Below, piece by piece: positions 16,011 to 21,578 of a stretch of DNA of 64,000 nucleotides. Below the pieces are notes generated by a model that worked only from the letters and a program-made list of their open reading frames with translations, was not told the origin of the DNA and searched no databases. Position 1 is the stretch's first letter, and each line of letters starts with the position of its first letter. The DNA lies in contig NZ_CP075190.1 in the NCBI RefSeq assembly GCF_020510585.1, positions 2,850,001 through 2,914,000 of the forward strand. The letters run 5' to 3'. Both the position numbers and the translations under genes were made by a program. This DNA comes from Ferribacterium limneticum. GTDB taxonomy: Bacteria; Pseudomonadota; Gammaproteobacteria; Burkholderiales; Rhodocyclaceae.

Positions 16011-16946
16011 ATGGCGAATATCGTCTGGATGCAAGCCGGTGCCTGCAGCGGCGAAAGCATGGCCTTGCTCTGTGCGGACCGGCCCAGCCTGGAAAACCTG
16101 CTCCAGCAATATGACCTGAATCTCCTCTGGCACCCGTCGCTGACCGCCGATGCTCGCTTCGGACAAGTGCTTGAGGCGATCACCAGCGGTCGCCAAAAAC
16201 TCGACATCCTGTGCATCGAAGGCAGCCTGATGACCGGGCCGGACGGTAGCGGCCAGTACGACACCTGGAAGGCCCGTGCCAAGATCGACATCGTCCGCGA
16301 ACTGGCGCCGCTGGCCACCCATGTCGTGGCGATGGGCACCTGCGCGGCGTTTGGCGGCGTCCATGCGGCAGGGCCGAACCCGACCGACTGCACCGGCCTG
16401 CAATTTCTCCGGGGCCAGCCGGGCGGCCTGCTTGGCGCCGACTGGCGGGCACGCAGCGGCCAGCCTGTCATCAACGTCGCCGGCTGCCCGGCCCACCCGA
16501 GCACGATGACCAAGGTGCTGGCCATGCTGGCCGAGGGCGAAACGCTCCAGCTCGATGCACTCAACCGGCCGGCCGCCTTCTTCGCCAGCCTCGTCCATCA
16601 GGGCTGCACGCGCAACGAGTACCACGAATACGACATCGAGGACGAGGTGCTCGGCGGGCGCGGCTGCATGTTCTTCAGCCTCGGCTGCCGCGGCCCGCAG
16701 ACTGTGGCGCCGTGCAACACCGAATTGTGGAACGGCCACAGCAGCAAGACGCGGGCTGGCGTCCCCTGTTTCGGCTGCACCTTGCCCGATTTCCCGGCGA
16801 ACCGCGACCTGTTCGTGACGCCCAAAATCGGCGCCGTGCCGAAATTCCTGCCGCTCGGCGTCGCCCGCGCCAGGTACATGGCCTACAAGAACCTGGCCCG
16901 CGCCGCTGCCCCCGAGCGCGTCATTAATCGCGAGATGGAACCTTGA
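16011..16946 (+). CDS. [NiFe] hydrogenase small subunit (group 2-like)
   Basis: 311 aa, without a Tat signal or C-terminal anchor, so cytoplasmic as in group 2 (cyanobacterial-uptake and sensory) hydrogenases. The subunit carries the electron-relay Fe-S clusters. Visible ligands: proximal cluster Cys12, Cys111 (MGTCAAFGGV) and Cys159 (AGCPAHP); distal His196, Cys199, Cys219, Cys226; medial Cys235, Cys253, Cys256. The second N-terminal cysteine of the usual CxGC motif is replaced (CSGES, Glu15), which recalls the CSGNT of group 2a and departs from the CGGC of classic HoxB/HupU sensors. The stop shares one base with the large-subunit ATG. A GAAAGGAG ribosome site precedes 16011. Confidence 0.93.
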   Translation: MANIVWMQAGACSGESMALLCADRPSLENLLQQYDLNLLWHPSLTADARFGQVLEAITSGRQKLDILCIEGSLMTGPDGSGQYDTWKARAKIDIVRELAPLATHVVAMGTCAAFGGVHAAGPNPTDCTGLQFLRGQPGGLLGADWRARSGQPVINVAGCPAHPSTMTKVLAMLAEGETLQLDALNRPAAFFASLVHQGCTRNEYHEYDIEDEVLGGRGCMFFSLGCRGPQTVAPCNTELWNGHSSKTRAGVPCFGCTLPDFPANRDLFVTPKIGAVPKFLPLGVARARYMAYKNLARAAAPERVINREMEP

Positions 16947-18463
16947 TGACCCGCGTCACCGTCGATATCGACCTCAACCGCGTCGAGGGCGACCTCGAAT
17001 TCCAGCTCGATCTTGAAGACGGCGTGGTCGTCGATGCGCGCTGCGTCGGCACGCTGTACCGCGGTTTCGAGCAGATCATGATCGGCCGGGCGCCGCGCGA
17101 TTCGCTGGTCATCACGCCGCGCGTCTGCGGCATCTGCGGGACCGCTCACCTTTATGCGGCGACGCTGGCGCTCGAACAGATCGCCAACATCACGCCGCCG
17201 GCCCATGCCGTGCTCGTCCGCAACCTGTGCCTGATGGCCGAGACGCTGCAAAGCGACTTGCGCCAGAGCTTCCTGTTTTTCACGCCGGATTTCTGCAACC
17301 CGCTGTACGCCGGCCACCCGCTCGCCGCCGAACTGGCCGAGGCCTTCGCCCCGCTCAAGGGCAGCGTCGTGCGCGGCTGCCTGAAGAGCACACGCGAGCT
17401 GATCGGCATCGTCGCCATTTTCGGCGGCCAGTGGCCGCACTCGACCTACATGCTGCCCGGCGGCATCACCCAGCCGGCCAATGCCCGCCGGCTGATGGAC
17501 ACGCGCGACATTCTGGCCGGCGTGCGCGACTGGTTCGAGCAGGACGTGATCGGCGGCGACCTCGATGAATGGCTGGCCCTCGACAGCGGCGAAGCCCTGT
17601 TCCGCTGGATGGCTGCCAACCCGGCCCGGCAGCGCAGCGCCCTCGGCCTGTTCAACCGTTTCGGCCGCGACATCGGCCTGCACAAGCTCGGCGCCGGCAC
17701 CGGCCACCTGCTCAGCTACGGCGTCAATCATCGGCCCGACGGCGCCGGCAGCGAATTGTCGGCCGGCTTTTTCAACGCCGACACGCAGCAGGTCGAGCCG
17801 CTCGACCACCTACAGATCAACGAACACGTCCGCCATAGCTGGTTTCTCGATTACCCCGGCGGGCGCCACCCGTGGGCCGGCGAAACCATCCCCGACCACC
17901 AGCCGGGCAGCGACCGCTACACCTGGGCCAAGGCGCCGCGCTATGGCGACAAGGTGGTGCAGACCGGGCCGCTGGCCGAGCTGCGCATTGCCGGCGAAGC
18001 GCTGATTTGCGACCTGCTGGCCAGCGAGGGCGACAACACCTGGCTGCGCCAGTTCGCCCGCCTGCGCCGGGCCGGCTGGCTGCTCAATGCCGCGGTCAAC
18101 ACGAAAAAACAGCTAAAAATGAAATGCGACGAGCCGCATTTCATCGACCCGAAAATCGACGTCTGGCCGGATGGCGAAAGCTACGGCCTGGTCGAGGCGG
18201 CGCGCGGCGGGCTCGGCCACTGGCTGCGCATCAAGGATGGCGTCATCGACAAATACCAGATCGTCACGCCGACCGCCTGGAACGCCTCGCCGCGCGACAG
18301 CGCCGGCCGCCACGGCCACTGGGAACAGAGCATCATCGGTCTGCCGGTGGCAGACCCGGAAAACCCGGTGGAGATCGGCCACATCGTCCGCTCCCACGAC
18401 CCGTGCCTGGTGTGCACCGTGCATTTCATCGGCAGCCACAAAAAAACGCATTTCAATGTCTGA
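16946..18463 (+). CDS. [NiFe] hydrogenase large subunit (group 2-like)
   Basis: 505 aa from the ATG at 16946 (a TTG at 16943 is also in frame). It carries the Ni-Fe site: L1 motif RVCGICGTAH (Cys61, Cys64) and L2 motif DPCLVCTVH (Cys487, Cys490, His493). A 12-residue tail follows His493; such tails are removed by a maturation endopeptidase after Ni insertion, so the enzyme should need a protease, and one is fused to the next gene product. Residues 383-394 (AVNTKKQLKMKC) are encoded by a copy of the dispersed repeat. No hypABCDEF genes are in the window. Confidence 0.93.
   Translation: MTRVTVDIDLNRVEGDLEFQLDLEDGVVVDARCVGTLYRGFEQIMIGRAPRDSLVITPRVCGICGTAHLYAATLALEQIANITPPAHAVLVRNLCLMAETLQSDLRQSFLFFTPDFCNPLYAGHPLAAELAEAFAPLKGSVVRGCLKSTRELIGIVAIFGGQWPHSTYMLPGGITQPANARRLMDTRDILAGVRDWFEQDVIGGDLDEWLALDSGEALFRWMAANPARQRSALGLFNRFGRDIGLHKLGAGTGHLLSYGVNHRPDGAGSELSAGFFNADTQQVEPLDHLQINEHVRHSWFLDYPGGRHPWAGETIPDHQPGSDRYTWAKAPRYGDKVVQTGPLAELRIAGEALICDLLASEGDNTWLRQFARLRRAGWLLNAAVNTKKQLKMKCDEPHFIDPKIDVWPDGESYGLVEAARGGLGHWLRIKDGVIDKYQIVTPTAWNASPRDSAGRHGHWEQSIIGLPVADPENPVEIGHIVRSHDPCLVCTVHFIGSHKKTHFNV
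18092..18126 (+). repeat. Dispersed repeat, copy 4 (inside hydrogenase large subunit)
   Basis: Begins GCGGTCAACACGAAAAAACA and ends AAAAATGAAATG. It is read in the shared frame as AVNTKKQLKMK, residues 383-393 of the large subunit. Confidence 0.8.
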
Positions 18464-21400: not shown

Positions 21401-21578
21401 CGCCCATACGCTCAAAGGCATGTCGCGCAGCCTGGGCATGGACGACCTGGGCAACCTTGCTGCCACCGTCGAAACCGAGCTGCAAGAATCAGCGAGCTGC
21501 CAGCCTCCCCCGACGCTTGCGCCCTTGTTTGCCGAACTGGGCCGGATATCAAGGGCGTTGGTGAAATTGGGGCAGTAA
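18456..21578 (+). CDS. Hydrogenase maturation protease fused to PAS hybrid histidine kinase
   Basis: 1040 aa from the ATG at 18456, which overlaps the large-subunit stop by 8 bases. Residues 1-145 are a HycI/HybD-type (M52) hydrogenase endopeptidase: FGNPLHGDDGFG with Asp17/Asp18, MIVDA with Asp63, GGHGAG with His91 (the three metal-ligand positions of the family), and VEIGPVKTFAPGLS. A coiled coil (about 155-215), a PAS domain (about 218-330) and a second coiled coil follow. Then HisKA (His402 in MSHEVRTPL), HATPase, receiver 1 (Asp693 in LIDWQLP), receiver 2 (Asp836 in LMDCQMPIMDG) and a C-terminal HPt (His984 in AHTLKGMSRSLG). No membrane segments, so cytosolic. Inferred role: mature the adjacent large subunit and/or relay H2 status to a regulator not in this window. 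Confidence 0.9.
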   Translation: MSERMRILCFGNPLHGDDGFGPAVSLALKRIKLPPEVKVIDCGTRGLDALHLFEDCAHVMIVDAMAGDNPGKLRLLQPHSVPLESSGSGGHGAGVGYLLAAVRATIPKPPVIEIVAVEIGPVKTFAPGLSLEVAAAVAEATDVIRRCQAPAAFGQNCELATELDCLRQANLALESELIKSTEALELLIAEQERQQDELQLRSQELAQLHGALERAIGTMAEIFVMLGPDGRVIRANSLLTKELGYAPDALVGHYFEDCLPESSRQQLRRLLPANRGTPLLLNAIRAAGGRFEAELNFRRAESPADDDHDALPYLVHASQIHSQAGKLEGAVVVASNIAVLKDREKALRDNERLLHETAEDLRDHRDNLSAMVDEQTHDLRTAKEQAELASQAKTNFLSNMSHEVRTPLSAILGLSDLCLRTPLNVQQGQYLTKIRLAAHHLLGIINDILDFSRIEAGKLDIEQVPFDLPTLIDEITDLLIECIEDKGLELCVDIGPEVPGSFIGDPLRLKQIIINLLGNAIKFSEKGTLRLECRLESGDDELSRLRFSVSDEGIGISPAEQDILFSAFSQADTSTTRRYGGSGLGLVISRRLVELMEGRIWLDSEPGLGSTFHFTASLRAVPNAPLPAAELAARLAAHAGRTVLIVDDNPLLAETLGKQVLQLGLQAETCASGQAALSQLSGPSADYLAVLIDWQLPSGMSGVETITAIRQTIGPRAPALILLAPHNSAMLPFMENHVAAAVLRKPASLPGLYSALAVPLHLPALSPSPPANALPDIASVPHLRGADILVVDDVDINRELMQELLGMAGLKIRLASDGKQAIAAIRQKRPDLVLMDCQMPIMDGFTATRLLRAEPEYADLPIIALTAGALEHDRLQCMEAGMSARITKPVDVDELLHMISDLLQPAIKVVAPVTPSAAPTLEPAWMLDLPGIDVEKGLKLMGNKVNFYRSMLIKFRDSHGSHFASDLQAALDHNQHDVALRFAHTLKGMSRSLGMDDLGNLAATVETELQESASCQPPPTLAPLFAELGRISRALVKLGQ

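Follow-up and report, generated by a model that had tools for sequence, protein, structure and literature searches.

Three overlapping genes of Ferribacterium limneticum encode a cytosolic [NiFe] hydrogenase and, directly behind it, a 1040-amino acid (aa) protein in which an M52 (HycI/HybD-type) maturation peptidase is fused in frame to a coiled coil, a PAS domain and a hybrid histidine kinase. They occupy positions 16011-21578, forward strand, of the stretch analyzed here, called the window (64,000 nucleotides; contig NZ_CP075190.1, positions 2,850,001 to 2,914,000). We propose, with a probability of about one half, that this operon codes for a cytosolic H2-sensing complex in which the tail-clipping peptidase and the transmitter are a single polypeptide, the M52 domain docking the kinase on the hydrogenase. 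The fusion is one form of a wider family of operons, ordered small subunit, large subunit, M52 and sensor, whose M52 gene is usually separate from that of the sensor.

The fused protein and its operon

The three genes overlap by 1 bp (small/large subunit) and 8 bp (large subunit/fusion), and the operon contains the following features, as placed by open reading frames (ORFs), Pfam and alignment:

16011..16946, +, [NiFe] hydrogenase small subunit, 311 aa (ORF; Pfam Oxidored_q6 and NiFe_hyd_SSU_C)
16044..16055, +, CSGE, with Glu at the second proximal-cluster position (Glu codon 16053-16055; alignment)
16946..18463, +, [NiFe] hydrogenase large subunit (ORF; Pfam NiFeSe_Hases; ATG at 16946, alternative start TTG at 16943)
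18398..18424, +, DPCLVCTVH with the last two active-site Cys (C488 and C491, TTG numbering; alignment)
18425..18460, +, C-terminal tail FIGSHKKTHFNV, 12 residues, clipping expected (extension after the last His)
18456..21578, +, fusion gene, M52-coiled coil-PAS-HisKA-HATPase-receiver-receiver-HPt, 1040 aa (ORF, Pfam, homologue search)
18456..18902, +, M52 (HycI/HybD) peptidase domain with D17/D18, D63 and H91 (Pfam, alignment, model resembling HybD 1cfz)
18921..19106, +, long helix, coiled coil, residues 156-217 (model; common to the split sensors described below)
19119..19463, +, PAS domain, residues 222-336 (Pfam, model, Foldseek)
19629..19826, +, HisKA, H402 (Pfam, phosphosite location)
19965..20309, +, HATPase_c (Pfam)
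20448..20795, bounds approximate, +, first receiver, D693 (Pfam, phosphosite location)
20817..21152, +, second receiver, D836 (Pfam, phosphosite location)
21345..21494, +, HPt, H984 (Pfam, phosphosite location)

A first-pass annotation of this DNA had described three coupled genes overlapping by 1-8 bp, a cytosolic small subunit, a large subunit whose DPCLVCTVH is followed by a 12-residue tail, and an M52-PAS-HisKA-two receivers-HPt protein of 1040 aa with D17/D18, D63, H91, H402 and H984, and the ORFs, Pfam and located residues bear out each of these points.

The HycI profile matches the start of the fusion well above its cut-off (1.4e-14; 54.5 bits against 23), and the remainder is a hybrid sensor histidine kinase by its HisKA, HATPase_c, receiver and HPt domains and its phosphosites H402, D693, D836 and H984. 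In an AlphaFold model of residues 1-367 (predicted local distance difference test, pLDDT, 84.8; predicted template-modelling score, pTM, 0.44), the M52 domain is followed by helix 156-217, the PAS domain and an output helix, with a low-confidence joint at 150-158 and a pLDDT below 50 in loop 86-93, which contains H91. Foldseek relates the start of the model to M52 peptidases (1cfz HybD, template-modelling score 0.72 by target length) and its end to PAS/LOV domains.

The fusion recurs and is conserved

A database search for the M52-kinase architecture, which the first-pass annotation had suggested, was run with residues 1-190 of the fusion and returned 55 protein clusters sharing the fused N-terminus (601-1056 aa); precomputed Pfam matches place HycI in 54 of them and a histidine kinase in 54. 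The closest copy, P0001 from a Dechloromonas sp., is 99% identical over residues 1-190, and the source names include Dechloromonas, Azonexus, Ferribacterium, Imhoffiella and Thiorhodococcus, presumably spanning the Rhodocyclales and the purple sulphur bacteria. Among 395 genomes of the window's family, five, the window's included, carry the 340-residue module in a single frame. These and three named assemblies make up eight fused loci with DNA, which overlap in part with the 55 clusters; in the seven besides the window the M52 domain is 61-87% identical, and one (L125) ends inside the kinase at a contig edge.

The same annotation had named a sequencing or frameshift artefact, loss of the metal site in homologues and lack of association with hydrogenases as results that would speak against its reading. 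We found instead the fused frame in the eight loci and 55 clusters, D17, D18, D63 and H91 identical in 55/55 clusters, and small and large subunit genes directly ahead of the fused gene in 8/8 loci with DNA. For 8 of the 54 fused clusters that have a stated length, the longest contig is as long as that of a small subunit among the first 65 on the list; this speaks for linkage and does not prove it. Comparison of the window with five relatives gives ratios of nonsynonymous to synonymous substitution rates (dN/dS) of 0.17-0.30 for M52, 0.20-0.34 for PAS and 0.19-0.33 for the kinase; by the first of these ranges, the M52 domain is under purifying selection and not decaying. Other M52 fusions were sought in the family: among the matches listed, five open frames longer than 600 aa proved to be ordinary peptidases ending long frames over upstream sequence.

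The hydrogenase resembles group 2c

The conserved core of the small subunit starts too early for any twin-arginine translocation (Tat) signal ahead of it, the alignment with HucS (7uur) beginning at residue 2. HucS is also its best solved relative (E 2.2e-82), as is HucL (7uus, E 2.6e-91) for the large subunit. The second proximal-cluster position, Asn in the Huc small subunit, is Asp in 43 and Glu in 11 of the 54 aligned small subunits and never Cys. Large-subunit residues C62, C488 and C491 are kept in 54/54 rows and C65 in 53/54. An extension past the last His occurs at all 56 loci of the operon family (12 residues long in 50), so a peptidase is expected.

The L2 motif of the window's large subunit, SHDPCLVCTVH, compares with a group 2c consensus quoted as SFDxCLVCTVH (PMC4853749), and the same source reports the F-to-H change in a Thiomargarita sequence assigned to 2c. 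HydDB describes group 2c as 'Diguanylate cyclase-linked (putative)', with a putative H2-sensing role (PMC5037454). We regard the window hydrogenase as a putative H2 sensor resembling this group and label it 2c-like without assigning it to 2c, because the linked gene is a kinase and not a diguanylate cyclase. Group 2b, whose large subunits have no C-terminal extension, does not accommodate the 12-residue tail, and the three-gene operon contains no separate HucE-like Rieske gene of the Huc type (group 2a) by ORFs and Pfam.

A likely group 2b pair lies elsewhere in the same genome (L163; G000:C1:4156000-4168000), behind a sigma-54 response regulator and adjoining a GGDEF protein. Its large subunit stops exactly at DPCMVCTVH, and it is 37-38% identical to the window pair. 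This pair apparently brings the sensory hydrogenases of the genome to two.

In most relatives the peptidase and the sensor are separate genes

In 17 genomes, two separate matches were found close together, M52 alone and then a coiled coil-PAS sensor. Of 60 loci taken, four without a large subunit-M52 pair were dropped (L141, L165, L166 and L217); the 56 left have the large subunit gene adjoining M52 and the gene order small-large-M52-sensor. Eight are fused, 27 are split with an N-terminal Rieske motif in the sensor, 15 are split without it, three are split with a broken Rieske-like stretch, and three (L140, L221, which is an ordinary hydrogenase, and L227) have no matched sensor. A sensor gene, whether kinase or GGDEF-EAL, fused or split, thus stands behind the hydrogenase in 53 of 56 loci (8 fused, 45 split). 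Among split loci, the gap between M52 and the coil is 33-170 bp where the sensor is Rieske-less and 333-420 bp where it has the Rieske motif, and the coil-PAS parts of split and fused sensors are 25-34% identical. The family is uncommon, with matches in 25/151 genomes of one other family, 7/39 of a second and 3/369 of a class sample that includes the window, some of them M52 alone.

Among the 45 split sensors, 27 have GGDEF-EAL matches and 18 carry the label 'kinase', which in our trees means no GGDEF or EAL match. Pfam finds HisKA and HATPase in 17 of these 18, in a second frame for L128; the eighteenth, L206, is short and is placed among the GGDEF-EAL rows. The three GGDEF-EAL rows run through Pfam (L161, L162 and L201) were all confirmed. 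Relatives with 54-62% large-subunit identity have GGDEF-EAL sensors.

More distant pairs (L140; L166 with L228, in two genomes; large subunits 46 and 49% identical) are followed by M52, a Rieske-less PAS hybrid kinase and an HD_5 protein. HD_5 proteins include HD-GYP phosphodiesterases, and this neighbour is another hint at cyclic-di-GMP.

Many split sensors carry a Rieske domain

The 27 Rieske sensors (L126-L130, L132-L137, L201-L215 and L223) include kinases and GGDEF-EAL proteins. Residues C59, H61, C79 and H82 of the motif CxH-x17-CxxH are invariant in the 26 that were aligned (L206 left out), and Pfam assigns Rieske to 23 of these. A profile of 24 (L209 and L213 left out too) matches PAS chains and Rieske ferredoxins, for instance that of toluene 4-monooxygenase (residues 16-81, E 2.8e-4). 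The assignment rests on Pfam, the motif and this PDB sequence profile; a Rieske-coil-PAS model (pLDDT 89.1) shows a beta domain, helix 123-189 and PAS, and its fold-comparison rows shown were all PAS domains. The motif occurs in 0/55 fused proteins.

In Huc (group 2a), H2 consumption depends on the separate Rieske-type protein HucE, which its authors take to be an electron carrier while keeping other roles open (PMC6883350). Because of this role and of the motif, the split relatives plausibly have an electron acceptor built into the signalling protein, at the place that M52 occupies in the fused proteins. Three kinase sensors forming one clade (L138, L139 and L224) have an N-terminal Rieske-like stretch in which the ligand pattern is no longer complete, a hint that it may serve contact rather than electron transfer.

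Origin of the fusion

Our trees are quick searches supported by the Shimodaira-Hasegawa-like approximate likelihood ratio test (SH-aLRT) only. In the tree of small and large subunits (54 rows; L132 and L221, without a small subunit, excluded), the eight fused loci form one clade (SH-aLRT 100), and Rieske sensors occur in both the kinase and the GGDEF-EAL parts. An early Rieske sensor with several later losses would be the simplest reading, its direction inferred from a root on one very long branch.

The tree of M52 and coil-PAS (71 rows, without L206 and L221) adds 17 of the 55 fused proteins to the eight loci, P0012 being L124 in sequence, and groups 24 fused kinases in one clade (SH-aLRT 99); D17 is replaced by N in one of its 71 M52 rows. 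A single metagenome contig (10,979 bases) encodes P0054, an M52-PAS-GGDEF-EAL protein that is 65% identical to L197 and branches within a clade (SH-aLRT 99) whose other seven members are GGDEF-EAL loci, all split and Rieske-less. Because P0054 is nested there, it looks like a second fusion event. P0055, on a long branch beside the fused-kinase clade, is not claimed as a third.

Proposed mechanism and alternatives

M52 peptidases clip the large-subunit tail after nickel insertion. In the complex that we propose, the two subunits would make up a hydrogenase of group 2 type whose tail has yet to be removed; the M52 domain would recognise the nickel-loaded large subunit, clip its tail and, being part of the kinase, bring the coiled coil-PAS-kinase onto the enzyme. 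The PAS-kinase would then respond to H2 turnover, and phosphate would pass from H402 to a receiver, to H984 and on to a response regulator whose gene lies elsewhere. The relatives have a related transmitter that begins with a Rieske domain instead, a likely electron acceptor, and their peptidase is a separate gene. This model is consistent with the position of M52 ahead of the sensor in split relatives too (17 genomes; 45 split loci), with its fusion to two kinds of output at two places in the tree, and with the link of related hydrogenases to sensors (HydDB 2c, PMC5037454; 27/45 split sensors with GGDEF-EAL). It also draws on the place of the fused gene behind both subunit genes (8/8 loci), on the conserved metal site (55/55) and purifying selection on M52, on the large-subunit extension (56/56), and on the presence of hypA, B, D, E and F elsewhere in this genome.

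Several observations weigh against it. The evidence is computational throughout, and the fusion is tied to H2 by gene neighbourhood alone. The structure predictions are of single chains, so that docking on the large subunit is inferred. The HycI score of the fusion, 54.5 bits, compares with 133 and 103.5 bits for the two stand-alone peptidases of the genome, and no cognate response regulator lies beside the fusion within the window. Lastly, 15 of 45 split relatives live without Rieske and without fusion, so the fusion is not needed for function.

It is possible, on a tentative view, that the fusion serves joint production only, the M52 domain being an ordinary peptidase without a signalling part and the kinase contacting the hydrogenase otherwise, for instance through PAS. 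With M52 a separate gene directly ahead of the sensor in the 45 split loci, loss of a stop codon would suffice for a fusion, and HoxJ, the kinase of group 2b, acts in complex with a hydrogenase (PMC10073562) whose large subunit is described as having no clippable tail (PMC12134894). Joint production alone fits less well with a fusion at two places in the tree (a single contig stands behind the second) or with the absence of the Rieske motif from every fused protein. We consider it unlikely that maturation or nickel supply, and not H2, is what the kinase senses, the signal being M52 binding to the nickel-loaded precursor on which peptidases of this family are known to act; the missing electron-accepting motif of the fused proteins would suit this, whereas the built-in Rieske of 27/45 split relatives points to redox input for the family, and fused and split forms alike retain PAS.

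That the hydrogenase is an energy-yielding uptake enzyme, with a kinase that merely regulates it or its electron acceptor, appears quite improbable: its closest solved relatives do belong to the uptake enzyme Huc, yet a sensor gene follows in nearly all loci, and the ORFs of the three-gene operon include no other electron acceptor. An artefact joining two genes is scarcely credible, given the recurrence of the same frame and purifying selection across the joint.

Within the sensing complex proposed above, a more speculative possibility is that M52 replaced Rieske as the sensor input, the peptidase staying on as a docking head so that only nickel-loaded, clipped hydrogenase could switch the kinase. 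One coiled coil-PAS transmitter might then serve two inputs, a Rieske electron relay or an M52 maturation checkpoint, with a phosphorelay or cyclic-di-GMP enzymes as outputs. If so, signalling would be a second role acquired by a maturation peptidase. The first-pass annotation had proposed a sensory hydrogenase with its own signalling protease, through which the kinase could dock on the large subunit and read assembly state or H2 turnover. This interpretation is supported in part: the fusion is real and a sensory role is plausible from the relatives, while the wider split family and the Rieske sensors had been missed. Its further suggestion that the HPt implies a regulator elsewhere fits an HPt without an adjacent regulator, and the regulator itself was not found.

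M52 in the place of Rieske suggests a new way to build a hydrogen sensor. The fusion ties a signalling protein to a hydrogenase, and the Rieske relatives, on a related transmitter, offer a second input design for direct comparison. How the H2 signal passes from a sensory hydrogenase to its kinase is described as still under investigation even for HoxBC-HoxJ (PMC6978683), and group 2c is so far only putatively sensory. The fusion is a variant of such a putatively sensory system; in literature covered at the level of titles and abstract openings, the main hydrogenase survey (PMC4817680) aside, we found no M52-kinase fusion or hydrogenase-linked Rieske kinase, which does not establish their absence in print.

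Other features of the window and its genome

The genome is a single 4.4-Mb contig. Its two stand-alone HycI genes each adjoin another hydrogenase large subunit, and the Hyp maturation genes hypA, B, D, E and F are also located elsewhere. Upstream in the window (7399-11430) lies a kinase-receiver-HPt-receiver-GGDEF-EAL protein; downstream (30264-33805), a kinase is paired with a receiver-PAS-GGDEF-EAL protein, and a similar pair lies downstream in L004 and L005. Nothing was found to support the pair at 30264-33805 as the target of the HPt. Promoter and terminator scans (1 hit against 1.0 expected and 9 against 5.6 expected) were set aside as evidence.

Comparison with known systems

As in group 2c, a signalling gene follows a cytosolic pair of group 2-like subunits; the differences lie in the output, a hybrid kinase that carries M52 at its N-terminus, and in the L2 motif, which reads SHD where the consensus has SFD. 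Like the group 2b sensors HoxBC/HupUV with HoxJ/HupT, the system links a cytosolic pair to a PAS kinase; HoxJ and its hydrogenase together make up a sensing complex (PMC10073562). A review describes the sensors of groups 2b and 2d as lacking the C-terminal peptide (PMC12134894), whereas the window's large subunit has its 12 residues. Group 2a Huc offers the nearest solved structures and works with HucE, which has no counterpart gene in the window operon; the split relatives carry Rieske inside the sensor instead, with CxH-x17-CxxH against the HucE motif CxH(x15-18)CxxC (PMC6883350). With the HybD/HycI (M52) peptidases, finally, the N-terminal domain shares its fold and metal-site residues, and it differs from them in being fused in frame to a coiled coil-PAS-kinase.

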